Shown piece by piece: positions 1,627-20,876 of a stretch of DNA of 20,906 bases. Position 1 is the first letter of the stretch; each line of letters starts with the position of its first letter. This DNA is from a virus. The stretch is from positions 1-20,906 of the IMG/VR virus record IMGVR_UViG_3300010938_000148; one strand, given 5' to 3'. Made by a program: the position numbers and the translations under genes. The notes beneath the pieces are model-generated. The model was not told the origin of the DNA and ran no database searches. It saw only the letters and a list, made by a program, of their open reading frames with translations.

Positions 1627-2352
1627 CTACGACAGCGATATCAGCTCTTCCGCCATCAGGTCAGCGCCGTGCGTGACCGTGAGCCGGAGCGCCCGCGCCG
1701 ACAGCTCGGCGACGACTTCGTTATTGCTGGATTTTCCGCGCTCTATGGCGCGCAACGCCCCGGCAAGATACGCCGGATTGATGGAGAGCGCTTTTTCCGC
1801 CCCGTCGCCTTCTATCACATTGGCCACGTACGCCCTAATCTTCAGGTTGGCTTCTGCGTCCTCAGCCGTAATGTGCGCATCGGCGCCTCGGCAATCGATC
1901 CTGATTGACTCGAGGCCCGCGCGCTCAAAAGCGCTCACGGCGCGCAGGAGCGGTTCGAGGCCAACTATACGCCCAAGCCGCACTGAGCCCCGCAGCGTCT
2001 CCCGTGCGGCTCGCCAGACATCGGGATATGAGATGCCGTCGGCTAAAGGCAGGGACAGCGCGCCGTTGCGCGCCCTGCGATAGTCGTCCACGTCAGCGAC
2101 GGTTACGGGCCCGTAGAATGCCGGCCCCTCTGTGACGTGGAATACCCATCGAGACACCCGATGGCCATCGGTGGCCGTGACGTAGCCACCGCTGTAAGAC
2201 CGATCCACGTGGTAGACGTAGAGCCACCGCTGCATCTTCCTCTGGGCCGGCCCGGGCAGCGCGTGCTTGGCCAGGTCTACAGCGGCGAGGAACTCTCGCA
2301 CATCGACGTCGGCGATGGTCAATCGCGGGATATAGATCGAAGTATCGGTCAT
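1627..2352 (-). CDS. Sliding-clamp-like protein (DnaN domains II-III equivalent)
   Basis: A 241-residue protein resembling the bacterial DNA polymerase III beta clamp, the ring that tethers the polymerase to DNA. Residues 18-30 (VREFLAAVDLAKH) resemble the start of DnaN domain II. Residues 60-67 (ATDGHRVS) match the hallmark ATDGHRL segment of that domain. INPAYLAGALRAIERG (about 188 onward) matches the domain III strand-helix element that in DnaN reads FN--YL-D-L-AL. Normal DnaN is about 366 residues in three domains and forms a dimer. This protein is about the size of domains II plus III alone and appears to lack domain I. No clear ribosome binding site precedes ATG 2352, six bases after the previous gene, so translational coupling is likely. 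The family call is fairly firm; function as a clamp is inferred. Confidence 0.72.
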   Translation of the reverse strand: MTDTSIYIPRLTIADVDVREFLAAVDLAKHALPGPAQRKMQRWLYVYHVDRSYSGGYVTATDGHRVSRWVFHVTEGPAFYGPVTVADVDDYRRARNGALSLPLADGISYPDVWRAARETLRGSVRLGRIVGLEPLLRAVSAFERAGLESIRIDCRGADAHITAEDAEANLKIRAYVANVIEGDGAEKALSINPAYLAGALRAIERGKSSNNEVVAELSARALRLTVTHGADLMAEELISLS

Positions 2353-2748: not shown

Positions 2749-3138
2749 ATGCCACGCATGGACCAAGCAAAAAAAACAAAGCGGCGGATCATAAGGCGAA
2801 GCCCAATCATGCGCGCCATCGTGCGCAGGCGCGGCCTCCCCGCCGAAATCGCGCGCCAGGCAGGACTCGTTCGCGAAACCGTTGCGCGATGGCAATGGGT
2901 GCCAGAGGACTACACGGAGATCGTCTCTCGCATCACAGGTTTGCCGATCGAAACAATCGCCGGCGAACGCGAAAGAATCATGCGGCAACGGTGGGCTATA
3001 CCTCTCAGAGAGGTCACGCCTTCTGCCCGAGATCAGCGTCCAGCCAGTGAGCGATGGATCAAGCGGCGAGCGAGACAGGAGGAGCGCGCCAAGGTTGAAT
3101 ACCTAGCCTTGATTGGAGGAGGGAATGAGAATCAGTGA
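2749..3138 (+). CDS. Cro/YdaS-like helix-turn-helix DNA-binding protein
   Basis: A 129-residue basic protein. Residues about 18-57 look like a compact Cro- or YdaS-type helix-turn-helix: a helix MRAIVRRRGLPAEIARQAGL, the turn and recognition helix VRETVARWQW, then VPEDYTEIVSRITGLPIETI. That last part matches the V-P-----I---TG-----I ending typical of the family. The C-terminal half is Arg- and Glu-rich (ERWIKRRARQEERAK) and probably helical. The start may be ATG 2749 (AGG eight bases upstream) or ATG 2758. It sits next to a palindromic operator that also occurs before the late operon. The family role would be transcription control of lytic versus other genes; whether this one represses or activates is not visible. 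Confidence 0.72.
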   Translation: MPRMDQAKKTKRRIIRRSPIMRAIVRRRGLPAEIARQAGLVRETVARWQWVPEDYTEIVSRITGLPIETIAGERERIMRQRWAIPLREVTPSARDQRPASERWIKRRARQEERAKVEYLALIGGGNENQ

Positions 3139-3343: not shown

Positions 3344-3429
3344 TCAGGCTACCGGCCTGGAAGTCTCTTTCGGTTAGGTTTTTTGTCTTCCTGATTATCT
3401 GTATTGGCTGATACTCAATCTGACATTCA

Positions 3430-3625
3430 GTGCTACGTCGAATTGTCGACGTAGAACGTGTCCTGGGCGCTCTTGGCTTCCTGCGCCTTGAACCGCTTCT
3501 TCATGGTTTTCAGGTCGTGGCGCAGCCACGCGCAGCACACGCCGGCGGGAGAGACCGTGAGGCCGCGCTTGCCTTCACCCGGTTCTTCAATACCGGCTTG
3601 GGGAACAGGACACCGTCTGTTGGCT
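3430..3625 (-). pseudogene. Decayed IS481-type transposase fragment with an internal deletion
   Basis: The minus strand encodes a short recognisable stretch: GLTVSPAGVCCAWLRHDLKT, then MKKRFKAQEAKSAQDTFYVD, and a stop three residues later. From memory, IS481-family transposases have VSPSGVR-VWLRHDLET--KRLKALEAK-AQ in the helical linker and, dozens of residues later, QDTFYVGT at the start of the DDE catalytic core. Here the two are joined directly at AQDTFY, so the intervening part is deleted. The rest of the core, with its catalytic acids, is missing and replaced by a short palindrome. The upstream part also loses the family frame. It is not functional. It records past residence in, or exchange with, a bacterial chromosome or plasmid. 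Confidence 0.65.
3433..3454. repeat. Perfect 9-bp inverted repeat at the end of the transposase remnant
   Basis: CTACGTCGA (3433-3441), the loop ATTG, and TCGACGTAG (3446-3454) form a perfect hairpin. It lies exactly where similarity to the transposase core stops and it contains the stop codon of the broken frame. It looks like a rearrangement junction. No run of T follows on either strand, so it is a poor terminator. Confidence 0.75.
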
Positions 3626-3826
3626 AATGCAGATTATCTTCGCTCGGTTAGCCGATGCTGGCTTTCCGCGATGGAGGATCAGGGGTTCTGTTGTGCGGTG
3701 CGACACAGGTCCGTGAGGACAGACTTCCCACCAAAGCCCAACCGGTTAGCCCGTTACAGAACGATCGGCACGCTCTTCGTGTAGTCCGCCGGAGCGCGTA
3801 TCTCTCGTCCGTGCTTTCTTGAGGCC

Positions 3827-3851
3827 GCACCCTTCGTGAGGGTGCGTCTTT
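3827..3851 (+). terminator. Rho-independent terminator-like hairpin
   Basis: GCACCCT (3827-3833), loop TCGTG, AGGGTGC (3839-3845), then GTCTTTTA. A 7-bp GC-rich stem followed by a T run fits intrinsic termination on the plus strand. It could end the transcript of the Cro-like and membrane genes, about 480 bases upstream, shielding the origin-like region from transcription. Confidence 0.65.
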
Positions 3852-3858
3852 TATGCAC

Positions 3859-3914
3859 GCGCGGAATGGAACCCGCGCGAAATAACTAGAGGTTTCGCGC
3901 GGTTCCATCCGCGC
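3859..3914. repeat. Long inverted repeat 1 of the origin-like region
   Basis: The left arm at 3859-3882 and the right arm at 3893-3914 are complementary over about 22 bp with two single-base gaps, around a 10-base loop (taactagagg). The arms contain GCGCGG, TGGAAC and CGCGCGAAA and their complements. It is large enough to extrude as a cruciform or form a stable hairpin in single-stranded DNA. Confidence 0.8.
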
Positions 3915-3920
3915 TATCCT

Positions 3921-3968
3921 AGGCCCTATCCCGGGAGCAAAACCATCCCGTTTACTGGGATAGGGCCT
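3921..3968. repeat. Long inverted repeat 2 of the origin-like region
   Basis: AGGCCCTATCCC (3921-3932) and GGGATAGGGCCT (3957-3968) are perfect 12-bp arms around a 24-base loop. The loop can itself pair GGGA with TCCC. It begins six bases after inverted repeat 1. There is no T run, so a terminator role is unlikely. Confidence 0.82.
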
Positions 3969-3974
3969 CTTGCT

Positions 3975-4019
3975 CTTTCGTCTCGGGGCTTTCGTTTCAC
4001 TTCAGCCCCTCGTCGAAAG
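3975..4019. repeat. Compound inverted repeat 3 of the origin-like region
   Basis: Nested arms: CTTTCG (3975-3980) with CGAAAG (4014-4019) outside, and GGGGCT (3985-3990) with AGCCCC (4004-4009) inside, each perfect and separated by four unpaired bases on both sides. It follows inverted repeat 2 by six bases, making a run of three hairpins within about 160 bp. Confidence 0.75.
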
Positions 4020-4218
4020 AACGAGGACGCGCGCGCGAAGCGCGATTCGCATTGTTTTTCACGAGAGTCAAGAGGGAAAATTATTTTTTTTGTAACTCGT
4101 TGAGTTTGTTGGGCTTTTTTGGGTGGTGGAACGGATTCCTACGGCTTTTTTGCGGTTTTTTTGGGGCTTTTTCTTGGCATTTGCCGATGGGTTAAGAAAC
4201 TATAAGCATCGATTCGCC

Positions 4219-4249
4219 CGTGGACAACCTGTGGAAAACCTGTGGATAA
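4219..4249 (+). promoter_or_regulatory. Three DnaA boxes in exact 11-bp steps
   Basis: CGTGGACAA (4219-4227), TGTGGAAAA (4230-4238) and TGTGGATAA (4241-4249) all point the same way and start exactly 11 bases apart. The third is a perfect DnaA box (TTATCCACA on the other strand). The second has one change and the first has two. Same-face head-to-tail boxes suit cooperative loading of DnaA. The six bases CTGTGG at 4240-4245 also pair with CCACAG at 4251-4256. Confidence 0.7.
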
Positions 4250-4330
4250 CCCACAGCCTCCGGCCGTGATGCCGACCATAATCTGCGATGACGGCGGCAC
4301 GAAATGATCCGGCGGCGTCAGATGTCCGGC

Positions 4331-4350
4331 AGGGCGGCGAGTACCGCCCT
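4331..4350. terminator. Hairpin at the end of the short leftward operon
   Basis: AGGGCGG (4331-4337), loop CGAGTA, CCGCCCT (4344-4350) is a perfect 7-bp GC-rich stem, 12 bases past the stop of the last leftward gene (4362). No T run follows on the minus strand, so it would act as a factor-dependent stop or as an RNA 3' end stabiliser. Confidence 0.4.
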
Positions 4351-4361
4351 GTCGCGACTGG

Positions 4362-4688
4362 TCAGGTAGAGCTCAGGATGAGCAGCAGATTACCCCCTAT
4401 GCCGATGGGGGGGGGCACGCCGCTGCTTTCTTGCACAACGCGGGGGTATCCCGGCCAGTCCGCGGACAGCACCTGCTGCGCGATATCACGCCACGCCTCG
4501 GCCTCGGTGGTGGCGGCAGAATATATCGTGGTGTCCACCATCCCGCCGGAACCCCCGCCGGCGTTGCGCGAGAACCGCGTCACGTAGAGCCGCCAGCCTC
4601 CCCGATACTCGCGGCGCAGCGCGTAGTCGCGTCCGTCGTAGAGCAGGATCGCGTCTGCTGCGTCCTCAGCGGACAGACCTCGGATCAT
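4362..4688 (-). CDS. Hypothetical protein, last gene of the short leftward operon
   Basis: A 108-residue protein starting at ATG 4688 (GGCGG seven bases upstream), overlapping the end of the previous gene by 23 bases. A longer reading to 4775 lacks a ribosome binding site. I do not recognise it. It begins MIRGLSAEDAADAILLYDG, continues with YALRREYRGGWRLYVTRFS, a Gly-rich loop, then TTEAEAWRDIAQQVLSADWP. It has a predicted alpha/beta mix and no membrane segment. The C-terminal segment is read through a run of nine C on the coding strand (4407-4415), so its last residues are sensitive to sequencing error or slippage. Confidence 0.62.
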   Translation of the reverse strand: MIRGLSAEDAADAILLYDGRDYALRREYRGGWRLYVTRFSRNAGGGSGGMVDTTIYSAATTEAEAWRDIAQQVLSADWPGYPRVVQESSGVPPPIGIGGNLLLILSST

Positions 4689-4902
4689 CGGTGAGCCGCC
4701 AGGGATTAAAATTGAGCAGGTTTTCACTGGGTTTCTCCTTTTGGCTGACCTTGGCGAGAAAATCGCGGTAGGCAAGCTCCACCTCGTGCAGATAGATGGC
4801 GTGGTACAGCGCTTCCATCTTTGGGGACATATCGCACCGAAGGCAGTATCGTCGCCACGCCTCTACGCGGCGTCGATCGAAGCGGTCGAATTCGTTGTCC
4901 AT
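4666..4902 (-). CDS. Hypothetical Arg/Tyr-rich protein
   Basis: A 78-residue protein with a textbook ribosome binding site (AAAGGAG, seven bases before ATG 4902). It starts MDNEFDRFDRRRVEAWRRYC and continues with a helical MEALYHAIYLHEVELAYRDF. It contains two Cys (YCLRC) but no second Cys pair, so a zinc site is unlikely. I do not recognise a family. Its leader and first codons are near-copies of those of the next gene upstream (start 5142), pointing to a duplicated expression cassette. The body of the protein is not obviously similar to that neighbour. Confidence 0.65.
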   Translation of the reverse strand: MDNEFDRFDRRRVEAWRRYCLRCDMSPKMEALYHAIYLHEVELAYRDFLAKVSQKEKPSENLLNFNPWRLTDDPRSVR

Positions 4903-5329: not shown

Positions 5330-5523
5330 CGCGACCGAACCCAAGGTTGTGCTCGATCGCGTCCTAGTTGTGTTAGGAACGAGCATAGGAATTTGTTCTA
5401 ATTGCGACTGCGACGCAATTGCAGCGCTCGCGCGCGCGAAAAGCGTCGAGGACGTGGGGCAATGCCCGCGCGTCCCCCGACCACCCCTCTTTCCCACCCC
5501 CAAAAAAAATTGTATGGTCCGGC

Positions 5524-7095
5524 ATGCTGTTTCCGGAAGATGTTGGTGAAGCGGAATCTCGCCGTCCCATGTGGGTCTGGCGGGATGAGGATTTGGCTGC
5601 GCTGCGCGCCGAGAGATTGACACCCGCCCTGCGCGGTGATATGGTGCCTCCGTCACCTCGGATGTCGGGAACTGGGGAGCCGGCGCGCGGTGTTTCTCTC
5701 CTTTCCACCGCATCATCCTCCGCCGGCTCCCGTTTTTCCGCAAAGGGCGGCGCTTCCGCCGCTCCGGCCGATTCTGCGCCCATTGCCTCCGTAGTTTCGT
5801 CAGTTCAGGCCGATCGGGCCGTTCCGTCTTCTGCGCCCGGCAAGGCCGCTTCGGCATCTGCCGCTTCTGTTCCTTCCGCCCCTCCCGCGACTCCGGAGAC
5901 GAAGATTCTCGAAGTGGTGAGCGGGGATACGTTCAAGGCTCTCGTCGGCGGCAAGGAAGTGACGGTGAGGATCGCCGGGGTGGATGCTCCGCGGTGGTGG
6001 TGGTTCGGCGGGAAGCGGGCCAAGGAGAATCTTGAGAGCCTTTTGCGGCGCGCGCCGATTGAGGTCTATCCTGTCGGCGTAGCCGACGGCAAAATGATCG
6101 CCGACGTCATGGTGGGCGACGTGGATGCATCGAGATGGATGGCCATGCGCGGCGACACCCCATGGGGGCCTGCTCCGCAGGGATGGCCGAACCCGCGCGA
6201 GTTCAGAAGAATTTGGAATTCGCTTGGCGCGGACGATCGGCGCAAATGGATGGGCGTTCTCGCGGGAAGGCAGAAGATCGCGCTCTCGCGCGTGAATGGA
6301 GCCCAGGACAAGGACGAGGAGAACCGCTGGTCGTTTGAAGCAGGCCGGTTCTTGAGAGAGGTGGTAACCCCGCAGAAGGAAAAGAATGAGGAGAAGAAGG
6401 AATTGCGGCTTGTGCGCCGCCCCGACAGAAGCGAAGTGCGGGCCTGGTTCTTCAGCCTCCATCCAAAAGAACGCGATTGGTTCCTGACCGCAAGGGACGC
6501 AGAAAAGACGTATCTTGAGAGCATTGGAAAACTGAAGGATGAAGAAAGAAAGAAGGCGAACAGCGAAAAACGCTCCCTCTTTGCAGGCAGATCGTACAAC
6601 GAATTCAAGGCGGACCTGAACGCCTTCATCGACGCAACCACCAGGCGATTCCGCCAGTACAGGCCCAACCGCGAGGTCATCGAGATCGTCAAGGACGTCT
6701 TCAGACGCGAGGGAATGTCCGATAATGGAATTGCGGGAGTCCTCCACAATATCCGCGATGAGAGCAATTTCAATCCGGCGCTGCGCGTCCCCGACCAGCC
6801 GAATTGGCGCGGAGAGGCGCGCTACGCCCATGGGCTCTTCCAGGAGGGAGGCGCGGAGTGGCTCAAATTCCACCGCTGGCTTGCCGGCCGCGACTGGCGC
6901 GACGCCTCCCTCCAGAGCGAATTCGTTGCAAAAAATATCAAGCAGAACTATCCTCACGTGTGGAACGCCATGAGAACGGCGAAAACGCCGGAGGACGCCG
7001 CCATCGCATTTCTAGCCGGTTACCTAAGGCCGCTCGCACAACACATGCGAAGGCGCGCATACAGGATCAGAAAATACGGAGTCGGAAAATGGTGA
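5524..7095 (+). CDS. SNase-like domain fused to phage tail lysozyme
   Basis: About 523 residues from ATG 5524; the start is uncertain, since no clear ribosome binding site precedes 5524, 5569 or TTG 5419. The N-terminal 120 residues are a Ser/Ala/Pro-rich linker. Residues about 125-200 resemble the staphylococcal-nuclease OB fold: ILEVVSGDTFKAL, then VTVRIAGVDAPRW, and GKMIADVMVGDVDASRWM. A charged, helical middle follows. Residues about 385-505 resemble the phage tail lysozyme family: GMSDNGIAGVLHNIRDESNF with the likely catalytic Glu in RDESNF, then YAHGLFQEGG and KTPEDAAIAFLAGYLRP. It would cut peptidoglycan at infection or release. The nuclease-type domain lacks the usual catalytic Glu after the D-x-P motif and the second Arg, so it is probably a binding module. 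Confidence 0.75.
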   Translation: MLFPEDVGEAESRRPMWVWRDEDLAALRAERLTPALRGDMVPPSPRMSGTGEPARGVSLLSTASSSAGSRFSAKGGASAAPADSAPIASVVSSVQADRAVPSSAPGKAASASAASVPSAPPATPETKILEVVSGDTFKALVGGKEVTVRIAGVDAPRWWWFGGKRAKENLESLLRRAPIEVYPVGVADGKMIADVMVGDVDASRWMAMRGDTPWGPAPQGWPNPREFRRIWNSLGADDRRKWMGVLAGRQKIALSRVNGAQDKDEENRWSFEAGRFLREVVTPQKEKNEEKKELRLVRRPDRSEVRAWFFSLHPKERDWFLTARDAEKTYLESIGKLKDEERKKANSEKRSLFAGRSYNEFKADLNAFIDATTRRFRQYRPNREVIEIVKDVFRREGMSDNGIAGVLHNIRDESNFNPALRVPDQPNWRGEARYAHGLFQEGGAEWLKFHRWLAGRDWRDASLQSEFVAKNIKQNYPHVWNAMRTAKTPEDAAIAFLAGYLRPLAQHMRRRAYRIRKYGVGKW

Positions 7096-7304: not shown

Positions 7305-7683
7305 GGAGTTTCGTTCCGAGCGCGATGATAGGGGAATCATCCCGCCGAAAGAGACGGAGAACCGGGAGCCCGTCACCGACGAGGACTGGGAACTGTTCGA
7401 GGAGGCTCTTTCTCCCGAGGACCGCAAAACCCTCGAAAGAATCATTGATGAGGTGGAGTCGGGCAAAATCGACCCGGAGGAATACAGGCTGTTGTTTGAT
7501 GACATCTACGCAAGAACGCTGATCCGGTGGCGCGAGATCATCCGCGAAAGGAAGAAAATAAGGCTCAACGAAAACGATCAGGAAGAGGAAGGCGGAGGCG
7601 AGGAAAGCACCGAAAATACCGGCGGCGGGGAGAAAAAGCCGTTTCTCAGGCCTCTGTTCCGGGGAGATCGTGCAGGCGCATGA
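7294..7683 (+). CDS. Acidic hypothetical protein
   Basis: A 129-residue protein starting at ATG 7294 (GGAGGAAGAT directly upstream), overlapping the previous gene by 11 bases. It is highly acidic: VTDEDWELFEEALSPEDRKT, then LERIIDEVESGKIDPEEYRL, followed by a more basic helix WREIIRERKKIRL and a Glu/Gly-rich disordered tail. It is predicted to be all helical. I do not recognise a family. Its place between the lysozyme and packaging genes would allow a role as small terminase or head-assembly factor, but no DNA-binding motif typical of a small terminase is visible. Confidence 0.65.
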   Translation: MRSEEFRSERDDRGIIPPKETENREPVTDEDWELFEEALSPEDRKTLERIIDEVESGKIDPEEYRLLFDDIYARTLIRWREIIRERKKIRLNENDQEEEGGGEESTENTGGGEKKPFLRPLFRGDRAGA

Positions 7684-8764
7684 ACTTGTGTCAGAATTCC
7701 TTCCGGACGCATCCATGACGGAATTTTCCGCGCCATCTTTTCGCTTCATTGATCTGTTCGCCGGGATCGGGGGAATGAGACGGAGTTTTGAGTCGATTGG
7801 CGGCAAGTGCGTTTTCACGTGCGAGTGGGATCGCCATTGCCAGCAGACCCTACGCGCAAACTTTCCCGACGATGAACACTGCATCGCAGGTGACATCCGG
7901 CAGGTACAGGAATCGGAAATCCCTGAACATGATTTTCTGTTGGCAGGATTCCCATGCCAGCCGTTTTCGATCGCAGGAGTTTCAAAAAAGAATGCCCTCA
8001 AACGTCCACACGGATTTGCGTGCGAGGCGCAGGGCACTCTCTTCTTTGACGTGGCCCGGATGATCCGTCATCACCGTCCGCGCGCCTTCGTATTGGAAAA
8101 CGTCAGGAATCTCATAAGACACGATCGAGGTCGTACCTTCCGGGTCATTCATGAAGTGCTGACCTGCGAGCTCGGTTACCATGTTCATTGGAAGGTCATC
8201 GATGCAAGGTCCTGGGTGCCCCAGCGCCGTGAGCGCATCATCATCGCTGGCTTTCGTGATCGGACGAATTTCTCGTTCGATTCGATGAACATTCCTGATC
8301 CGTTGAAGGGACCCAGGCTGGCCTCGATACTCCACCTCGAGAATGGATCGGAGAAGTCTGAAAAACCGTATACCTCCGGGCGCCAAGCCGTCGTATCGGA
8401 CAGGTACACGCTTTCAAATCACCTTTGGAAATACCTGAAAGGGTATGCCGAGAAGCATCGAGAAAAAGGAAACGGGTTTGGGTACGGGCTGTTCGGGCCT
8501 GACGATGTGGCAAGGACTCTGTCAGCCAGGTACTTCAAGGACGGCTCTGAGATTCTGATCCGGCAGCAGGGCAGGCCACCGCGGAGGCTTACTCCGAGAA
8601 AATGTGCGCGGCTGATGGGATTTGACGCTCCCGGCGCTCCGTCTTTCCGGATTCCGGTGTCGGACACGCAGGCATACAGGCAGTTCGGCAACGCCGTGGT
8701 GGTCCCGATGATGACTGCAATTGCCAGGCATATGGAGCCGCACCTCAAGGCGGCCGTCGCATGA
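7670..8764 (+). CDS. DNA (cytosine-5)-methyltransferase, Dcm-like
   Basis: A 364-residue C5-cytosine methyltransferase, which transfers a methyl group from S-adenosylmethionine to cytosine in DNA. All conserved motifs are present in order: I FIDLFAGIGG (26-35, cofactor), IV GFPCQPFS with catalytic Cys96, VI VLENVRNL with Glu143, VIII PQRRERIIIAGF, the target-recognition region, IX RRLTPRKCARLMGF, X YRQFGNAVVVPM. The target region has LWKYLKGYAEKHREKGNGFG and TLSARYFKDGSEILI, which closely resemble E. coli Dcm, suggesting CCWGG as target (inference). GTG 7670 (GGGGAG upstream) is taken as start; ATG 7715 is an alternative. No restriction enzyme is nearby. The likely job is to shield phage DNA from host cleavage at packaging time. 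Confidence 0.92.
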   Translation: MQAHELVSEFLPDASMTEFSAPSFRFIDLFAGIGGMRRSFESIGGKCVFTCEWDRHCQQTLRANFPDDEHCIAGDIRQVQESEIPEHDFLLAGFPCQPFSIAGVSKKNALKRPHGFACEAQGTLFFDVARMIRHHRPRAFVLENVRNLIRHDRGRTFRVIHEVLTCELGYHVHWKVIDARSWVPQRRERIIIAGFRDRTNFSFDSMNIPDPLKGPRLASILHLENGSEKSEKPYTSGRQAVVSDRYTLSNHLWKYLKGYAEKHREKGNGFGYGLFGPDDVARTLSARYFKDGSEILIRQQGRPPRRLTPRKCARLMGFDAPGAPSFRIPVSDTQAYRQFGNAVVVPMMTAIARHMEPHLKAAVA

Positions 8765-8964
8765 ACTGGCGCACGGGACAGATTCATCTCTTCGAGCGCG
8801 CCGGAAGAAGCGGGCGGAAAGGCAATGACGTCTACGATCGTCTTCTGAAGGAGAAGGAGGAGCGCGAGATGGCAATGCTTGAGGCAGACCTTACCGCAAG
8901 ACTCATGGGGGATCCACCCCCGGGATACTCGGCCCTCGATAAATCATGCCGGTCAAAACCCTAG
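8761..8964 (+). CDS. Small hypothetical protein before the terminase
   Basis: A 67-residue protein whose ATG overlaps the methyltransferase stop (ATGA), so it is probably translated by re-initiation. It has a basic N-terminus (FERAGRSGRKGNDVYDRL) and a charged helix (LKEKEEREMAMLEADLTARL). It overlaps the terminase start by 19 bases and ends in TAG. Its position immediately before the large terminase is where the small terminase normally lies, but it is shorter than known small terminases and no helix-turn-helix is clear. I leave the function open. Confidence 0.6.
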   Translation: MNWRTGQIHLFERAGRSGRKGNDVYDRLLKEKEEREMAMLEADLTARLMGDPPPGYSALDKSCRSKP

Positions 8965-10769
8965 AGCCGTTCCCGCGCGAACGATTCCTGCAGTTCTGCT
9001 CGCACCTGAAGATCCTCACCAAGGACTTCGGGACCGTGCCGTTCAGGCTGCTCGGATCGCAGCAATACATCCTCGACGAAATCTGCCGCGGCATGGACGA
9101 CGGCATCGCTTCGTTCATGGTGCTCAAATCCCGCCAGCTCGGATCGTCCACCTTCTTCCTCGCCCTCGATCTGTTCTGGGCCTTCAACTATCCCGGAATC
9201 TCCGGAGCCATCATCACGCACACGGAGCAGTTGCGCGACCAGTTCAAGAATATGATGGAAATCTATCGCGCCAACCTGCCGTCCGGATACAAGGTCACCG
9301 CACGTCGCGACAACCGCAACCTGCTCGCCTTCGCCAATGGCTCGGTCCTGCAGTATTTCGTGGCGGGAACCAAGGAGTCGTCCAAGGGGTTTCTCGGAAC
9401 CGGATCGGCGCTCAACTTCCTACACAAGTCCGAGGAGTCCGCCTATGGCTCTCCGGAGGACCTGAAAAACCTTCAGGCCGCATTGTCCACCAGATACCCG
9501 CACAGGCTCTACATCACCGAGACCACCGCGCGCGGATTCAACCATTTCTCCGACTCGTGGGAAGCCGCGCTCAACTCACAGATGACGCGAACGATCTTCG
9601 TCGGATGGTGGCGCAACGAACTGTTCCGGTTCGAGCGCGACTCGATCGAGTTTTCCGCCTACTGGCCGGAGAACGAAAAACCGAACGCGCTCGAAAGAAG
9701 ACGGATCAGGGACGTCGAGGAGCGCTACGGGTTCTCCGTCCAGCCCGAGCAACTGGCATGGTACCGCTCCGTGCTCAACGAGCCGCCGTACAACGGCGAC
9801 CAGTCCAAAATGGACGCTGACTTCCCGTGGACGCCGGACGACGCATTCGTCTCCACCGGATCGCAGTTCTTTACAAATCAGTCCATCACAGACCAGATGC
9901 GCCGCGCTCGCAAACAACCGATGCTGTTCTACAAGTACGAGTTCGGATACGACTGGCGCGACACTAGGCTCGTCCCGTCCTCGCCGGCGCGCGGAGATCT
10001 GCGCATCTGGGAGGAAGCGCACCCGCTCGGCCGCTACGTAGTTTCGTGCGATCCCGCCTACGGATCGTCGGACGATGCCGACCGGACGGCAATAACCGTC
10101 ATACGATGCTACGCCGACCGCGCCGTGCAGGTCGCGGAATATGCCTCAAGCATCACATCAACGCACCAGTGCGCGTGGATTCTCGCGCATCTATGCGGAT
10201 ACTACCGCAACTGCCATCTCATCATGGAGATTCAAGGGCCGGGACAGGCGGTCGATGGCGAGCTCAACAAGCTGCGCGCCGAACTATCCGGAATGTTCAT
10301 GCCAGGTCAGACAGAACTTCGCAATTGCCTCGACGGCATGAGAATATTCCTGTACAGGCGCGGCGACCATTTAAGCGGAAGCGTGCTCAAGCAGTTCAAA
10401 ACCTCGCGCGAGATCAAGCTTCGCATGATGAACAGGCTCAAGGACTCCATCGAGCTCGATCGCCTGATCGTAAATTCACAGAACTGCCTCGAGGAGTGCA
10501 AGACCATCGTCTACGAGGACGGGGCCGTATGCGCGGAGCGCGGAAAGAAGGACGATCGCGTGATTGCGCTCGGCATGGCGAACTTCGCATGGCTCGAGTG
10601 GGAGCAGCCGCGGCTTCGGCAGCAGGGGATGACCATGCTGCGCGCCCAGGAAATGCAGGAAAGAGGCTTGAACCAGATGCCGAGCCGCATGGTCATCGAC
10701 TATCTCGAACGCGCCGGCATCACCAAATCGGACAAGGTGATTCCTCTTGCGCGTCCCTTTGCTCGATGA
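8946..10769 (+). CDS. terL: Terminase large subunit
   Basis: A 607-residue packaging motor and nuclease that pumps DNA into the prohead and cuts it. The N-terminal ATPase has the Walker A variant LKSRQLGSST (residues 60-69), of the K-x-RQ-G-ST type used by many phage terminases. A Walker B-like segment ALNFLHKSEE (155-164) has Ser-Glu in place of the usual Asp-Glu. The C-terminal RNase H-like nuclease has acidic residues in SCDPAYG (Asp369), the following DADRTAITVI strand, and LIMEIQGPGQ (Glu428). The length is somewhat longer than the usual 450-600. ATG 8946 lacks a strong ribosome binding site and is probably coupled to the upstream overlapping gene. It is followed by the portal after two small genes. 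Confidence 0.9.
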   Translation: MPVKTLEPFPRERFLQFCSHLKILTKDFGTVPFRLLGSQQYILDEICRGMDDGIASFMVLKSRQLGSSTFFLALDLFWAFNYPGISGAIITHTEQLRDQFKNMMEIYRANLPSGYKVTARRDNRNLLAFANGSVLQYFVAGTKESSKGFLGTGSALNFLHKSEESAYGSPEDLKNLQAALSTRYPHRLYITETTARGFNHFSDSWEAALNSQMTRTIFVGWWRNELFRFERDSIEFSAYWPENEKPNALERRRIRDVEERYGFSVQPEQLAWYRSVLNEPPYNGDQSKMDADFPWTPDDAFVSTGSQFFTNQSITDQMRRARKQPMLFYKYEFGYDWRDTRLVPSSPARGDLRIWEEAHPLGRYVVSCDPAYGSSDDADRTAITVIRCYADRAVQVAEYASSITSTHQCAWILAHLCGYYRNCHLIMEIQGPGQAVDGELNKLRAELSGMFMPGQTELRNCLDGMRIFLYRRGDHLSGSVLKQFKTSREIKLRMMNRLKDSIELDRLIVNSQNCLEECKTIVYEDGAVCAERGKKDDRVIALGMANFAWLEWEQPRLRQQGMTMLRAQEMQERGLNQMPSRMVIDYLERAGITKSDKVIPLARPFAR

Positions 10770-11139: not shown

Positions 11140-11518
11140 GGACAACCCCTCGTGCTCCAAATGCGGCGGAGCCGAAATGCAGTGGATCCCCAAGGGAGGC
11201 CGTCCGCTCAAGGTGCTGCGCAGGTACGACGCCATCTTTCGATCGCTTGCGGACACCTATGGGCTGAGCAACATGAGAACGGCACGCGAGGGCGAAGCCG
11301 TCATCCCGCCGCCGCCGGAAGGAAGGACGGCGGGAACCTGGTCGCCCTCGCCGGGCGTAGAACTCCCCATCGCTCTCGGAGCCTGCACGGCGGTTGATGC
11401 AAAACAGGTCGCGCCCCTGGTCGGATCCATGACGCCTGAAAGGCAGCCAAGGCTCCCGCATATCTCCGAGCGCACCATCATCGACGCCCGCTATACGAGG
11501 GACGGCAGGGAAACATGA
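11084..11518 (+). CDS. Zinc-ribbon protein between terminase and portal
   Basis: A 144-residue protein starting at ATG 11084 (AAGGAG eight bases upstream). The N-terminus is a zinc ribbon: YRCRRCRHEDDYHEDNPSCS and KCGG give C-x2-C-x13-C-x2-C, like the FmdB-type ribbons. After residue about 45 there is LKVLRRYDAIFRSLADTYGL, which is predicted helical, then a Pro/Gly-rich stretch and a C-terminal RTIIDARYTRDGRET. It may bind a protein or DNA partner during head assembly. It overlaps the portal start by four bases (ATGA), so they are coupled. The zinc site is visible; the role is inferred. Confidence 0.75.
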   Translation: MVVRTYRCRRCRHEDDYHEDNPSCSKCGGAEMQWIPKGGRPLKVLRRYDAIFRSLADTYGLSNMRTAREGEAVIPPPPEGRTAGTWSPSPGVELPIALGACTAVDAKQVAPLVGSMTPERQPRLPHISERTIIDARYTRDGRET

Positions 11519-13182
11519 TCATCCCGAAGCAGAAACGAGACCTCGAGCGGTTCCTGAAATTCGTCGCCGACACATGCTGGCAGTCGCGCGAGGAGCGCAT
11601 GCGGCTCTATTCGCGCAGGAGAAAATATTTCCTGTACGGCTCCGCGTCAGGTACCGCCGCGCACAACCGCATCAACTCGCACCTCGATCTCGTGTCCTCA
11701 TTTCTTTATTCGCCGGATCACGCGAGATACGCAATCGACCCTGACGACGACAATGACGCCGTCGTGGAGCAGACCGCAGCCCTTGCCAAGTACTGGAACA
11801 CGACGTTCCGCGATTCGGACCTTGCGTATCTCTACGGTGAGGCGCTGCTGTGGTCCCTGGTCTACGACACGATGTTCCTCAAGCTCGGATGGAACGACGC
11901 GCGCGGAGAACTGTTCGGCGTCATCGTTCCGCCGTCGGCAATCGGAGTGTACGACGAGACGCGTCCGGGGCTGTCCAACCAGTCCGCATTCGTCCATTCC
12001 TACGGAATCGACTTCGACGAGGCGGTCCAGCGTCTCTATCGCGCAGGGCTCGCCTCGGAACTCAAACGTCTTTCCGTGAAGGAGAGGGAGGAAGAGGAGC
12101 CGTCCTCGATCCACGAGATCGTCGTCAGCGGCGCATGGGGCGCGTCGATCACCGATAATGTCCAGGGCGTCGTCAACGTGCAGGCGGAGCCCACGCCGTC
12201 CTACCAGGCACCGCTCGGGGTGCCCCAATGCAGGTGGCACGAAATCTACGTCTGGGACGACGAATACAACGATTATGCGATATTCACGATGCTGGATCCC
12301 GACATCGTGCTGTCCGACTCCCGCGAGACGATCGAGATCATCTCCCGCGTCTCCGGCAGCGAAAAGAAGGGATCTAACATATTCCTGCCGGGCGACCATC
12401 CGTTCGTGCCGGTCCAGCCGTATGGAATCTACGACTACTTCTGGGGCGCCGCACACATCGAAAAGCTCATCCCGCTCCAGAACTGGATGGAGAAGCGCAT
12501 TTCCGAGATCAAGATGCTGCTCGCCCGCCAGGTCAATCCCGCGAAATTCGGATCGGGCATCATGGGGCTCGCCGACGAAGTGATGGCGGCGATGGAGGGG
12601 CCGGGAGGATGGGCGTTCGAACAGGTGCCCGGATCGAGAATCGACGAGCTCAAGCCGGACATCCCGCAGGACCTGTTCGCGGAGCTCAAAGAGATCAACT
12701 CCATGTTCCTCGAGGCGTCGGGCTTGACCCAGACCCTGATGGGTCACGGCGAGGAAGGCGTGCGGGGATCGTCGCACGCAAGGAAACTCGCAATCACGGG
12801 ATCGGGGCGCATCCGAAAAGTAGCGGTGGGACTTGAGCCGTCGCTTGCCAAGCTCGGAGAGATTGCGATTAAGCTAATCGCAAAAAACTCCGAGGAAAGA
12901 CTGCGCGCCGCAAACATGAAGTTCGTGCCTGCGCAGATCGGAACGGAGTTTCACATCCGCATTTCAGGACACTCGCATTCGCCCCTGTTCCGCGACGAAA
13001 CCAGGGACGAAGCCATCGTCATGCTCAAGGCCCGCGCGATCGACCAGGAGGCCCTCATCGACATACTCAACCCACCCAACGCCGCCGATCTCAAGAGGCG
13101 GCTGCGCAAGAACCAACAGGTGCAGCTTGCCATGGCCAGAGAGGCCGCCGCGCGGGGGGCCAAGCTGAAGATTGCCTCTTGA
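11515..13182 (+). CDS. Portal protein
   Basis: A 555-residue protein at the standard portal position, directly after the terminase module and before the scaffold and capsid genes. The portal forms the ring at one head vertex through which DNA enters and leaves. The sequence shows RMRLYSRRRKYFLYGSASGT near the N-terminus, AHNRINSHLDLVSSFLYSPD, the acidic AIDPDDDNDAV, an alpha/beta wing with LLWSLVYDTMFLKLGWND, and HIEKLIPLQNWMEKRISEIK typical of the portal stem and clip region. The C-terminal 60 residues are Ala/Arg-rich and helical, fitting a barrel or crown. The length agrees with podovirus-type portals (500-700). The start has AGGGA upstream. The family call rests on position and general pattern, with no single diagnostic motif. 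Confidence 0.83.
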   Translation: MIIPKQKRDLERFLKFVADTCWQSREERMRLYSRRRKYFLYGSASGTAAHNRINSHLDLVSSFLYSPDHARYAIDPDDDNDAVVEQTAALAKYWNTTFRDSDLAYLYGEALLWSLVYDTMFLKLGWNDARGELFGVIVPPSAIGVYDETRPGLSNQSAFVHSYGIDFDEAVQRLYRAGLASELKRLSVKEREEEEPSSIHEIVVSGAWGASITDNVQGVVNVQAEPTPSYQAPLGVPQCRWHEIYVWDDEYNDYAIFTMLDPDIVLSDSRETIEIISRVSGSEKKGSNIFLPGDHPFVPVQPYGIYDYFWGAAHIEKLIPLQNWMEKRISEIKMLLARQVNPAKFGSGIMGLADEVMAAMEGPGGWAFEQVPGSRIDELKPDIPQDLFAELKEINSMFLEASGLTQTLMGHGEEGVRGSSHARKLAITGSGRIRKVAVGLEPSLAKLGEIAIKLIAKNSEERLRAANMKFVPAQIGTEFHIRISGHSHSPLFRDETRDEAIVMLKARAIDQEALIDILNPPNAADLKRRLRKNQQVQLAMAREAAARGAKLKIAS

Positions 13183-14531: not shown

Positions 14532-15536
14532 GTGCCTGTCTTTGGAACCGGAATAGTCCCCGATCAGGGACCCATCGCCAATGAACTTACGGCCGTCACG
14601 CGGCGCGCATACGCATCGCACGTGTACGTCCAGATCTACTCGTCGTCGCCGCTGGTCGCGGCGCTTCTCAACAACGCCCAGACCATGTCCGGCGGCATCA
14701 GTCCGATCACCGTTCCGGTCCAGGGCGTTCCGATGACCACAATCCAGACGATCGGATACGACGGCACGTTCAACCAGCCGGGCGTCACTCCGGGACTCAC
14801 CACCGCAGCGTTCAACCCGGCCGCGTATCTTGCCGCGATTCCGTTCCCGGGCATGGAAGGACTGGTGCAGCTCAACTACGCCATCGTCCCGATCATCGAA
14901 GCCCGCATGAACGACTGCGCAAACCAGTACAGGGAGCGGTTCTCATACGATTTCTATCAGAACACAACGGACAACAAATCGGTCATCGGTCTTGCCGGAG
15001 CCGTGGACGACGGAACGTACATGGACTCCTACGGAGGAATTTCGCGCTCCAGCAATCCATGGTGGAAGTCGCAGTACGTCAACAATTCCCCGGCGGTCGC
15101 CCCGACCCGCGACCTCATCAATCAATATCTTCTGCAGCAGCAGAAGGCCAACGAATTGCCAAAGCTCGGCCTATGCGGGGCGGGAACCTGGGGCAAGCTT
15201 GCGGCCGATTTCACGTCGCTTGAGCGCTACAACATCACTCCGACCTCGGATTTCGGAACCGGGGCCGTGGGCTCGAAATTCCGCGCGATCGAGATTGCGG
15301 GCGTTCCCATCTACATGGATCCCCGCTGTCCGGAAGGAACGCTGTATCTGATCAACCCGGACTACATTACCCTGTACATCCACGAGGCCGCTGCGTTCCG
15401 CGTGCTGCCGTTCGAATCCAGATTCCCGGTGGGCCAACTCGGATACATCAGCGGAGTGCTTACCGTGCTGCAACTCGTCGACGTCAAGCCCTCGGCCCAC
15501 ATGAAGGTCATGGGCCTGACGTATCTGTCGATCTAG
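14532..15536 (+). CDS. Major capsid protein
   Basis: A 334-residue protein from GTG 14532 (GGAG eight bases upstream). It forms the icosahedral shell. The N-terminus has NELTAVTRRAYASHVYVQIY and SPLVAALLNNAQTMSGG. The middle has YAIVPIIEARMNDCANQYRE, resembling the spine helix of HK97-fold coats. The C-terminus has IAGVPIYMDPRCPEGTLYLI and FESRFPVGQLGYISGVLTVL, typical of phage coat proteins in which a receding strand names the bound site (GVPIYMD). The size and position after a scaffold candidate agree. No propeptide or protease is visible. It ends in TAG 15534-15536, showing TAG is a real stop in this genome. The HK97 fold is inferred. Confidence 0.82.
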   Translation: MPVFGTGIVPDQGPIANELTAVTRRAYASHVYVQIYSSSPLVAALLNNAQTMSGGISPITVPVQGVPMTTIQTIGYDGTFNQPGVTPGLTTAAFNPAAYLAAIPFPGMEGLVQLNYAIVPIIEARMNDCANQYRERFSYDFYQNTTDNKSVIGLAGAVDDGTYMDSYGGISRSSNPWWKSQYVNNSPAVAPTRDLINQYLLQQQKANELPKLGLCGAGTWGKLAADFTSLERYNITPTSDFGTGAVGSKFRAIEIAGVPIYMDPRCPEGTLYLINPDYITLYIHEAAAFRVLPFESRFPVGQLGYISGVLTVLQLVDVKPSAHMKVMGLTYLSI

Positions 15537-17095: not shown

Positions 17096-17968
17096 GTGCT
17101 CCTCTCCGAATACATCGCCCAGGTTCGCGGTCTGATCCATGACTCCGACGGAACGGACTGGACCGATACGGAAATCGTTTCCCATATCAACAGCGCACGC
17201 ACGACTGTTGCGCTCGACACCCATTGCGTGCGCAATCTCAAGGCTGTCTACTGCATTGCCGATCAGGAAACCTATCCGCTGTCCGGCGGGATCGGCGCGG
17301 TCACGGTAACGGCCGGCGGCTCTGGCTACACCTCCGCACCGACCGTATCTTTTTCCGGGGGCTCTCCGAGCACACCGGCCGCCGCGACCGCGACCGTCTC
17401 CGGCGGATCGGTAACCTCGGTGACGATGACTTCGTGGGGATCGGGATATTCGAGCACGCCTGCGGTGACGTTCTCGGGAGGCGGCGGGTCGGGGGCTCAG
17501 GCCACGGCTACCGCGCTGCTCAACGTCCTTGACCTGTTCTCGGTGACGATCAACTGGTCCAACCTGCGCTCGACCCTCGATTGGCACCCGTTCAATGCCT
17601 TCCAGGCGTTCTGCCGCTCGAATCCGATGCTCCGCAGCGTTCCGGCGGCCTGGTCGGGATACATCGAGCAGAATCTCATCTATCTGTTTCCCATCCCGGA
17701 CACATCCTACAGGATGGAATGGGATATCGTGACGTTGCCTTCTCCCCTGTCGTCGGGCTCCGACTCCGACGGCGAGATCAAACAGCCATATGCCGACGCG
17801 GTTCAGTACTATGCCGCGTTTCTGGCGTTGATGAAGATGCAGCAGTTCGATCAGGCCAACGTGCTGCGCAACCTCTACCGTCACCGGATACGGCAGATCC
17901 AGAGCACCAAGCAGACGGTTCGCCTGATGTCTGCGTACTCGACCTATCTCCCGCGCTTCGTCAGGTAG
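17096..17968 (+). CDS. gp4-like head-tail adaptor with an inserted beta-repeat
   Basis: A 290-residue protein from GTG 17096 (AGGAAGG upstream). The two ends match the podovirus gp4-like adaptor that seats on the portal and connects the tail: LSEYIAQVRGLIHDSDGTDW, DTEIVSHINSARTTVALDTH, IADQETYPL, and later VLDLFSVTINWSNLR, PAAWSGYIEQNLIYLFPIPD, PYADAVQYYAAFLALMKMQQ. Between residues about 64 and 140 there is an inserted Gly-rich segment with two repeats, VTAGGSGYTSAPTVSFSGG and MTSWGSGYSSTPAVTFSGG. The insertion falls between YPLSGG and the strand that begins LLNVLDLFSV, a likely surface loop. A plain gp4-like protein is about 170-210 residues, which fits 290 minus the insert. Confidence 0.78.
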   Translation: MLLSEYIAQVRGLIHDSDGTDWTDTEIVSHINSARTTVALDTHCVRNLKAVYCIADQETYPLSGGIGAVTVTAGGSGYTSAPTVSFSGGSPSTPAAATATVSGGSVTSVTMTSWGSGYSSTPAVTFSGGGGSGAQATATALLNVLDLFSVTINWSNLRSTLDWHPFNAFQAFCRSNPMLRSVPAAWSGYIEQNLIYLFPIPDTSYRMEWDIVTLPSPLSSGSDSDGEIKQPYADAVQYYAAFLALMKMQQFDQANVLRNLYRHRIRQIQSTKQTVRLMSAYSTYLPRFVR

Positions 17969-17972
17969 GACG

Positions 17973-20012
17973 ATGCCACGGCCAAGGCAACCCCTGCCTC
18001 TCCGCCAGGATCGGGAATTGGCGATCCGCGCCGATCAGCAGATGGAGCGCAAACGCTTCATCCATTTCGGTGAATGGGAGACGATGGACACCGAGCCAGC
18101 GCGAACCGCTCTGTCCCCGAAACGTCTTGCGTGGGCCGAGAATGTCTTGATCGTTGCGCCCAATGATCTGCGCGTGGTTCCCGGACCCGGCGAAACACTT
18201 GCGACGATCGCCGGAGAGACGATCACTTCGGCGTTCTACGCATCCTTCAATGACGCCGACTACATCGTCTGCTTCACGCAGTCCGGCAAGGGATACACTG
18301 TCAAAACCTCGGACGGATCGATCACAAATTTTGCCGGCGCGGGAACATTCAGCGCCAATCCGGATGTGGCGCAATGGCAATCGGAAAGAATCCTGATTGC
18401 CGATCCGACGGCGGGCTACTGCACCTATGACGGAAGTCTGTTTGTCAAGGAGGGCATGGTGTCTCCCAACATCAGCGTCACGAGCGGAGGCGAGGGATAT
18501 TCGAGCGCGCCGACCGTGACCATCTCCGGCGGATCCGGCGCGGGCGCGACGGCGGTGGCGGAGATCGAGAACGGCAGCGTGGTGCGCGTAAAGTTGACAA
18601 ACGCCGGATCGGGATACGCCTTCGACGACATTCTCAAGGTGTCGTTCTCAGGCGGCAATCCGTCGCCCGGAGGCGTGCTCTCTGTCACCGTTCTCGACGG
18701 AGGGCACGACTACAGGACGGCTCCGACCGTAACCATCAGTGCGCCCGCGGGCGGCGGAACCACGGCCACCGCAACAGCCCAGGTAACCCTCGGGCGCGTT
18801 GTTTCGATCACGGTCACCAACATGGGGACCGGATACAAGGAGACGCCGACGATCACCATCACGCCGGCGGGAGCCGACATCAATGCGGGAGGAGCGGTCG
18901 CGGTGGCCGTCATGTCCACGGTTGCGTCCGCAACGGCGCGCATCTGGCCGTTTACGCTCAAGCCCAGGACGCTTGCCGTATATCAGGGGCGCGTGTGGTA
19001 CGCATCCGGCCGGGAGCTACGGTACACGGGGCTTACCGGGTACGACGACGTTGACAGTGCGAACGCCGCCGGAACGACGATACTTTCGGACGCCGATGTC
19101 GTGCATGAAATCGTGAAGCTGTCCTCCGCCAACAACTTTCTCTATATCGTCTGCGACAAGTCGATCAAGCAGATCGGAAGCATCTCGGTCTCGAACTCGA
19201 TCACCCAGTTCACGATTACGTCGCTGTCGTCCGACCAGGGAACCACGCACGGGCGCTCCGTGCGATCCTTCAACCGGCTCCTGATGCTGGCGAACGGCAC
19301 GGGGATATTTGCGCTGTTCGGCGCTTCCGTCGAGAAGATATCCCAGCCGATGAGCGGAATATTCGAAAAAATAGACCTGTCCCAGCCGATCGTCGCCGAC
19401 GTGTTCGATTTCTACGGACGGCACGTCCTGCTCGTGCTCGTCAGATATGACGACCCCAGCGCCGGATCGCGCCCCCTGCTGCTCGCCTATTACGATCGCA
19501 GATGGTCCGTGATCTCGCAGGGTTCCATGTCGATCATCGTCACCGCCCAGATCGAGGCGGGGAACAGGATATACGCGATTTCCGGCGGGACGATTTCCCG
19601 CATCCTCGCCGACGAGGACGCGGCGGTTAATGTCACAGTAAAGACATCGCTGTGGCACAACAACGAGCCGGTGCTAAACAAGCGCGCGATACGGCTCGGC
19701 ATCGGCCAGACATCGTCGGAAACCAATCTCATCTCCGTCTCCGTCGATTCGGAGGGTAGTTCGTCCATTCTGTCCATTACGGGAAGCAACAGGGTAGTAT
19801 GGATCAACGGCCTTGGGGACGACGTGCAGTGGCGGAGCTTAAGCGGCGATCTCTTTTTCACCGTGGCGGGATACGCCTATGCCGACGCATCCGTGGTTCA
19901 GAGCGGGATATTCCTTGGGATTACGGTCTCGGGGAGTTTGAGGAAATACCGGCTCAACAACCTAAGCCTTGAGTACGTTCACGGAGCTTTGTTCAAATCG
20001 CGCAACGTGTAG
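17973..20012 (+). CDS. P22 gp10-like tail protein with an inserted beta-repeat
   Basis: A 679-residue protein from ATG 17973 (AGGTAGGAC upstream). Residues about 50-160 (LAWAENVLIVAPNDLRVVPG, ADYIVCFTQSGKGYTV, DVAQWQSERILIADPTAGYC) and 325-600 (WPFTLKPRTLAVYQGRVWYA, EIVKLSSANNFLYIVCDKSI, SLSSDQGTTHGRSVRSF) resemble P22 gp10, the tail hub that closes the head and stabilises packaged DNA; a beta-propeller is likely. Residues about 163-320 are a four-repeat insert: GEGYSSAPTVTISGG, GSGYAFDDILKVSFSGG, GHDYRTAPTVTIS, GTGYKETPTITITP. P22 gp10 itself is about 470 residues, so the insert accounts for much of the extra length. It follows the adaptor by four bases. It ends in TAG. Confidence 0.7.
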   Translation: MPRPRQPLPLRQDRELAIRADQQMERKRFIHFGEWETMDTEPARTALSPKRLAWAENVLIVAPNDLRVVPGPGETLATIAGETITSAFYASFNDADYIVCFTQSGKGYTVKTSDGSITNFAGAGTFSANPDVAQWQSERILIADPTAGYCTYDGSLFVKEGMVSPNISVTSGGEGYSSAPTVTISGGSGAGATAVAEIENGSVVRVKLTNAGSGYAFDDILKVSFSGGNPSPGGVLSVTVLDGGHDYRTAPTVTISAPAGGGTTATATAQVTLGRVVSITVTNMGTGYKETPTITITPAGADINAGGAVAVAVMSTVASATARIWPFTLKPRTLAVYQGRVWYASGRELRYTGLTGYDDVDSANAAGTTILSDADVVHEIVKLSSANNFLYIVCDKSIKQIGSISVSNSITQFTITSLSSDQGTTHGRSVRSFNRLLMLANGTGIFALFGASVEKISQPMSGIFEKIDLSQPIVADVFDFYGRHVLLVLVRYDDPSAGSRPLLLAYYDRRWSVISQGSMSIIVTAQIEAGNRIYAISGGTISRILADEDAAVNVTVKTSLWHNNEPVLNKRAIRLGIGQTSSETNLISVSVDSEGSSSILSITGSNRVVWINGLGDDVQWRSLSGDLFFTVAGYAYADASVVQSGIFLGITVSGSLRKYRLNNLSLEYVHGALFKSRNV

Positions 20013-20016
20013 GGAC

Positions 20017-20358
20017 ATGTCGCTGTTCGAGCATAAGGAATTTATTCCCGGAGATGCCGCGGGGTTCGGGCTGTGGAGGCTCGAGCACCATTACGAGCAC
20101 GCCCGCCTGCTCGCCAGAGCTCGAGAGCTTAAATCCGTGGCAATTCCGGAATACGATCTTCTGTCGTGGGACGACGATGAGGATCGCATCAGGGCATGGA
20201 TGCTCGCCCACAACGACATCCACGCGGATCTCAAGGATGCCGTCGGGCTCAAGGGGACGGATCTTTCGCGCGTTGATTGGCAAAATCCGCTGGAAGTATC
20301 AATCTGGCTGGACAATCATGCGAAGGAGCATACGATCCTGGAGAGGATATTCACATGA
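20017..20358 (+). CDS. Hypothetical protein of the tail module
   Basis: A 113-residue protein from ATG 20017 (AGGGAC just upstream), four bases after the tail gene. It has LFEHKEFIPGDAAGFGLWRL, EHHYEHARLLARARELKSVA, IPEYDLLSWDDDEDRIRAWM and LAHNDIHADLKDAVGLKGTD, with FLEVSIWLD-like hydrophobics (VSIWLDNHAKEHTILERIF) at the end. It is predicted to be helical with many His residues. I do not recognise it. Its position between tail hub and the acetyltransferase-like gene is shared by small tail-module proteins in other podovirus-like phages. It overlaps the next gene by four bases (ATGA). Confidence 0.7.
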   Translation: MSLFEHKEFIPGDAAGFGLWRLEHHYEHARLLARARELKSVAIPEYDLLSWDDDEDRIRAWMLAHNDIHADLKDAVGLKGTDLSRVDWQNPLEVSIWLDNHAKEHTILERIFT

Positions 20359-20876
20359 TCGACTTTGTGCGATTGTCCACCGAGGATTTCGGCAGATACA
20401 GAGAATTGATGGAGCAGCACTCCGAGGAAACCATGGATGCCCCGCTTCACCCCAATCTCGAATTGTATCGGGCGCTTGAACGCAAGGGCGCTCTGTATCT
20501 TCTCGGAGCGGAGGAAGGCGGAAGGCCCGTAGGGTATTTCTCGGCGTTCGTCTTCCGGGATCCGCATCACGGATTCGTCCACGCGATCGACGATTTCTAT
20601 TTCCTGGCGCCGGAATACAGGAATTTCCGCAACGCCTCGGCCATGATCCGCCATGCCGAAAGGGATCTGGAGGCAAAAGGATGCATCTTCGCCGTTCTTC
20701 GGTCGCCGCGGCGTCGTGACATCGGCCCCTTCCTGAGAAGGCTGGGATATGTCCCTCTTGAAACGTCGTACATCAGGAGACTCGATCGGCGTGCTTCAAG
20801 CGTCAGGCTGCCGGACACCGAAGATCTCATGAACCACGTTCTGAACGATCCAGGAGAAACGCCATGGGTTTCGTAG
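20355..20876 (+). CDS. GNAT-family acetyltransferase-like protein
   Basis: A 173-residue protein. The pattern fits the GNAT acetyl-CoA transferase fold: HPNLELYRALERKGALYLLG and RPVGYFSAFVFRDPHHGF as early strands, then IDDFYFLAPEYRNFRNASAM (strand 4 and the acetyl-CoA-binding loop, here R-N-F-R-N-A in place of R-x-x-G-x-G/A), IRHAERDLEAKGCIFAVLRS and LRRLGYVPLETSYIRRL at the end. The first Gly of the loop is replaced, so activity may be altered. Many phages carry a GNAT-like gene in the connector or tail region; its substrate there is generally unknown. The start overlaps the upstream stop (ATGA). Confidence 0.8.
   Translation: MIDFVRLSTEDFGRYRELMEQHSEETMDAPLHPNLELYRALERKGALYLLGAEEGGRPVGYFSAFVFRDPHHGFVHAIDDFYFLAPEYRNFRNASAMIRHAERDLEAKGCIFAVLRSPRRRDIGPFLRRLGYVPLETSYIRRLDRRASSVRLPDTEDLMNHVLNDPGETPWVS

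Follow-up and report, generated by a model that had tools for sequence, protein, structure and literature searches.

The non-coding DNA at positions 4055-4249 is best read, as a single explanation, as a DnaA-dependent replication origin of a phage, an assignment that we hold with moderate confidence and that is drawn from the arrangement of its sites. The window, that is, the whole stretch of DNA that was analysed, is an entire IMG/VR record of 20,906 bp, classed as linear and hence probably a fragment. Several observations favour an origin: three tandem DnaA-type boxes that are absent from shuffled sequences are directly adjoined by phased T-tracts and the least stable 150 bp that the window contains; converging genes enclose the site in some 950 bp of non-coding DNA, with a clamp-like gene nearby; and hairpins, AT-rich DNA and tandem DnaA boxes follow one another in this order in Microvirus mar31 as well, independently. 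The original prediction had placed three long tandem hairpins, phased T-tracts and DnaA boxes at 3859-4256, and all of these were confirmed, with correct coordinates. It had also recognized the architecture of a DnaA origin; our computations bear out the order of the parts and the polarity of the boxes and lend no support to the function itself.

The three boxes are on the minus strand, in one orientation and at an exact spacing of 11 bp. Box 3 (4241-4249) is a perfect TTATCCACA, box 2 (4230-4238, TTTTCCACA) has one mismatch to it, and the weak box 1 (4219-4227, TTGTCCACG), nearest the AT-rich side, has two. The sites at 4219, 4230 and 4241 are thus all within the two mismatches to TTATCCACA, usually in tandem, by which such boxes are recognized. 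The tandem pattern was matched once, with no mismatches, versus no match in 100 shuffles with three mismatches allowed, and TGTGGAWAA occurs in the window at the two strong boxes and nowhere else (0.11 expected). The weak duplex lies on the 3′ side of TTATCCACA. In E. coli oriC the boxes have this same polarity toward the weak duplex. The basal unwinding system, where the weak duplex is also 3′ of the box, shares it as well (PMC8287927). DnaA-trios were sought by the published rule, which asks for three or more NAN triplets (3′-GAT-5′ by preference) no further than 16 bp from a box. A set of four, 9 bp away from box 1, formally conforms to it, as do 10-16% of random positions; the consensus GAT is absent beside box 1, and no clear trios are seen there.

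The AT-rich, weak duplex expected of a DnaA-type origin is found 3′ of the boxes, at 4055-4204. By nearest-neighbour energy over all 20.9 kb, no other 150 bp of the window is so weakly paired, and this stretch is a candidate unwinding element. Six runs of at least five T (4055-4172) are centred at 4057, 4087.5, 4117.5, 4148.5, 4159 and 4170, a spacing of 30.5, 30, 31, 10.5 and 11 bp that corresponds to a phase of about 10.25 bp (R = 0.96, p = 0.003 versus random placement). Phased A/T-tracts bend DNA and are common at origins and at promoters. A weak sigma-70-like leftward promoter, TTGTCC-17-TATAGT (4199-4227, minus strand), does overlap box 1, which contains its -35 element. The boxes could act on this promoter, or by titration of host DnaA, and in this way link the timing of the phage, or a structured RNA that it makes, to the host cell cycle. 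Such a regulatory role would suit the strong folding of the neighbouring hairpin block on both strands, and phages of Alphaproteobacteria are known to exploit CtrA, a regulator of the host cell cycle (PMC9437464). However, that survey detected no skew of DnaA sites in phages, the promoter match is at chance level (one found, 1.0 expected), and 150 bp of weak, bent DNA next door would be unnecessary for a promoter. We regard regulation by DnaA as rather improbable.

The hairpin block extends over 3826-4050 and is probably a part separate from 4055-4249. It opens with H0 (3826-3846, plus strand), a terminator-like hairpin, CGCACCC-TTC..-GGGTGCG followed by TCTTTTAT, located 3′ of the rightward genes. 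H1 (3859-3914) is a long inverted repeat, GCGCGGA(A)TGGAACC(C)GCGCGAAA ... TTTCGCGCGGTTCCATCCGCGC, with a stem of 22-23 bp, two bulges and -41 kcal/mol as RNA. H2 (3921-3968, AGGCCCTATCCC ... GGGATAGGGCCT) has perfect 12 bp arms and -29 kcal/mol as RNA, H3 (3969-4025, CTCTTTCG..GGGGCT ... AGCCCC..CGAAAGA) has -25 kcal/mol as RNA, and H4 (4029-4050, plus strand) is a short GC hairpin followed by ATTGTTTTTC, again terminator-like. The three long hairpins had been described as six bases apart, which is right for H1 and H2, whereas H2 and H3 abut. Folding of 3820-4060 yields -127 kcal/mol (z = -8.96 on the plus strand and -8.56 on the minus strand; 0/200 shuffles as stable), making it the top structure outlier of the window, to which nothing else in the window comes close. 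H0 and H4, which flank H1-H3, have T-rich tails on the plus strand, giving a U-tract after a GC stem; this is absent from H1, on either side, and from H3, and H2 has only CTTGCTCTTT. The H2 palindrome occurs exactly in two large viral contigs (L149, 6466-6493; L150, 6350-6377), where it is intergenic and forms the stem of a terminator hairpin followed by TTTTT.

Because of the T-rich tails of H0 and H4 and the use of the H2 palindrome as a terminator stem elsewhere, the simplest reading of the block would be termination or structured RNA, although H1 and H3 are devoid of U-tracts. A part for the hairpins in primer synthesis, as originally suggested, was unsupported; to read them as terminators or as RNA fits equally well or better. 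Priming is nevertheless central to one alternative, an RNA-primed or RNA-controlled origin of the ColE1 RNA II or non-RepA mycobacterial prophage type, in which a rightward stem-loop transcript would prime in the G/T-rich region. Tandem stem-loops are indeed followed by a G- and T-rich non-template strand, and RNA-based prophage origins exist (PMC7157519), but the T-rich tails of H0 and H4 should halt such a transcript and the known prophage cases adjoin parABS, which was not found among the genes tested in the window. Moreover, the Rfam scan gave nothing at gathering score, RNAI included; its sub-threshold matches were to eukaryotic miRNA and snoRNA models and were taken as chance. We consider an RNA origin very unlikely. 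The non-RepA mycobacterial prophage origins (RedRock, Alma, LadyBird) resemble the element in being non-coding regions with a possible structured RNA, and differ from it in the parABS just mentioned; they are not described with DnaA boxes, and DnaA goes unmentioned (PMC7157519).

Gene calls were made from open reading frames and GC3, without a trained gene finder. The left part of the window contains minus-strand genes, among them the clamp candidate (1627-2352), and a rightward HTH-like regulator candidate (2749-3138, plus strand) that is transcribed toward the element; the latter has a homologue of 30% identity (G006/L019) and no Pfam match. From the right, a small ORF with coding-like GC3 (4362-4775, minus strand) converges on the gap, which spans 3411-4362. 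Further right, genes for a protein with a lysozyme domain (5419-7095) and for a C5 DNA methylase (7670-8764) precede the structural module that makes up the right part of the window. This module includes TerL (8946-10769), portal-like (11515-13182) and capsid-like (14532-15536) genes, whose aligned counterparts in Manatee Spring phages carry the annotations portal and major capsid protein, a SU10-type adaptor (17096-17968) and a tail-type protein (17973-20012). At its right end is a GNAT-family acetyltransferase gene (20277-20876, plus strand). A tRNA search of the window returned none.

The protein encoded at 1627-2352 (minus strand) is a weak candidate for a DNA-polymerase sliding clamp-like protein. 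PHROG E values are about 1e-3 (window protein) and 6e-3 (its counterpart in the phage L007), the Pfam value is 0.23, and the predicted structure is of very low confidence (pLDDT 37). This 241 aa protein is 71% identical to the product of L007 10001-10708, a phage with otherwise different structural genes, and parts of window DNA 1-774 are also 76-79% identical in the L007 comparison. Taken together, the two similarities suggest module exchange.

The left end of the gap is occupied by an IS481-family transposase remnant with an internal deletion (3433-3633, minus strand), whose edge is the palindrome GTGCTACGTCGA-ATTG-TCGACGTAGAAC at 3430-3457. It is most similar to transposases of Alphaproteobacteria and Betaproteobacteria, affinities that hint at a proteobacterial host, and its presence fits an accumulation of debris in the gap. 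It is conceivable, then, that the gap holds nothing but terminators and foreign debris between converging operons, the hairpins stopping transcription and the T-tracts and boxes being host-derived leftovers. The convergence of genes from both sides, the terminator-like H0 and H4, the terminator role of the H2 palindrome in L149 and L150 and the IS481 remnant would all agree with this, as would the corresponding segment of the relative G006, where a terminator-like element, GC hairpin plus T-run, lies between converging ORFs without boxes. On the other hand, an in-phase box triplet, phased tracts and the weakest duplex are unlikely to be found together as leftovers, H1 and H3 lack the U-tracts of terminators, and the exact box array was found in none of the viral contigs and none of the genome contigs (84,980 species genomes). 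We consider debris and insulation alone an unlikely explanation, if one to be taken seriously.

Searches for relatives of the gap gave little. Blastn of 3400-4700 found no phage, and among plasmids only the IS481 remnant; no homologous gap was present in the viral-contig relatives identified by TerL, clamp, major capsid protein, regulator or the 4362-4775 ORF, and a TerL search of genome contigs found none. At the DNA level the gap is not bridged by any one relative, which could mean that the contig joins two unrelated pieces within it. However, G006 keeps the order and orientation of the regulator (30% identity), a replication-side ORF and the TerL module, and we give an assembly artefact almost no credence. 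G006 has no box array. L007, which appears to encode an SSB-like protein, has no array like that of the window, only a pair of ATATCCACA copies, 21 bp from each other, upstream of its clamp gene. This absence in both relatives counts against an origin, as does the IS debris in the gap.

GC skew also speaks against an origin. The turn predicted at this site, a typical if not strictly defining trait of DnaA-dependent origins, is absent, the cumulative skew showing a small local rise at about 3-4.5 kb and its main maximum at about 9 kb, in a test weakened by transcription and by the missing half of the genome. Neither is the phage-plasmid lifestyle that had been proposed upheld by the genes tested in the window, among which there is no Rep, ParA/B or partition gene. 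In the phage-plasmid P1 oriR and in iteron plasmid origins (RK2, pSC101), host DnaA boxes adjoin an AT-rich unwinding region (PMC4980987), as do the boxes of the window; in contrast to these origins, neither iterons nor a gene for a Rep initiator or for partition was seen in the fragment. The P1-type combination of Rep initiator, iterons and parABS was not found among the ORFs tested, the rest of the genome being missing.

The closest parallels to the putative origin are of two kinds. With the oriC core and basal unwinding system of bacteria (B. subtilis, E. coli), it shares tandem same-strand boxes, weak AT-rich DNA 3′ of TTATCCACA and the geometry of a spacer plus AT-rich DNA. It differs from them in having only three boxes, no clear DnaA-trios and tandem hairpins beside it, and in lying in a phage contig. 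With the intergenic regions of Microvirus mar31 and other gut Microviridae, it shares hairpins (z = -8.5 in mar31), AT-rich DNA and tandem TGTGGAAAAC boxes in the same order. Nevertheless, mar31 is a small ssDNA phage of unrelated sequence with about 12 boxes, and its origin function would be equally putative.

Tandem boxes turned out to be widespread. TGTGGAWAAC repeated with 0-3 bp between copies occurs in at least 120 IMG/VR contigs, where a uniform-base estimate of chance gives about 1, and in named phages too, so that the original prediction was overstated in calling the use of DnaA by a phage less usual. A match in Streptomyces phage ZL12 (E = 9) was discarded, being internal to a CDS. 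Arthrobacter phage EvePickles has three TGTGGA-type boxes (L153, 1497-1560) at the extreme right end of its linear genome, just after the last gene, an HNH endonuclease. Tandem boxes are not in themselves a sufficient mark of an origin, because the predicted unwinding side is the AT-richer one in just 36/80 IMG/VR loci; as a general rule over these loci, the idea that the AT-rich side of tandem boxes marks origins failed.

In mar31 (MZ089777; L152, 495-930), hairpins, an AT-rich stretch and about 12 head-to-tail ACCTGTGGAAA units are located between the capsid and pilot genes. Trio-like repeats lie 4-5 bp from tandem DnaA boxes in bajarodmic virus 309 (PQ006418; TATAATAATAATAATAA, L155, 578-640), with a strong hairpin just before, and in Microviridae sp. 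MG945484 (TAGTAATAGTAATAGTAG, L156, 616-646). These two gut microviruses, which are ssDNA phages, would seem to carry the layout of a bacterial unwinding system. A full-text literature search for DnaA boxes together with Microviridae found no paper.

For the element at 4055-4249, we infer that the three boxes, set on one strand at intervals of one helical turn, would be bound by host DnaA and that a DnaA filament would grow leftward from box 1 onto the adjoining T-tract DNA, intrinsically bent and weakly paired. This DNA would be melted, leading to helicase loading and initiation, and the phage's own clamp-like protein would possibly join elongation. The hairpin block (3826-4050) would be a terminator stack or structured RNA that insulates the origin from the rightward transcription of the regulator operon, an explanation favoured by the T-rich tails of H0 and H4 and by the terminator stem that the H2 palindrome forms in other contigs. 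The more specific proposal of a tailed phage with a self-contained mimic of oriC, a shield of tandem hairpins and host DnaA in place of an initiator protein of its own is, in our judgement, doubtful.

If the origin works, the phage borrows the initiator of the host chromosome, and its replication would be tied to the control of host DnaA. It would also constitute a compact natural origin in which to define the minimal parts of DnaA-driven unwinding. Furthermore, the many phage contigs with tandem boxes and the trio-like microviral sites suggest that the use of DnaA by phages may be commoner than assumed.
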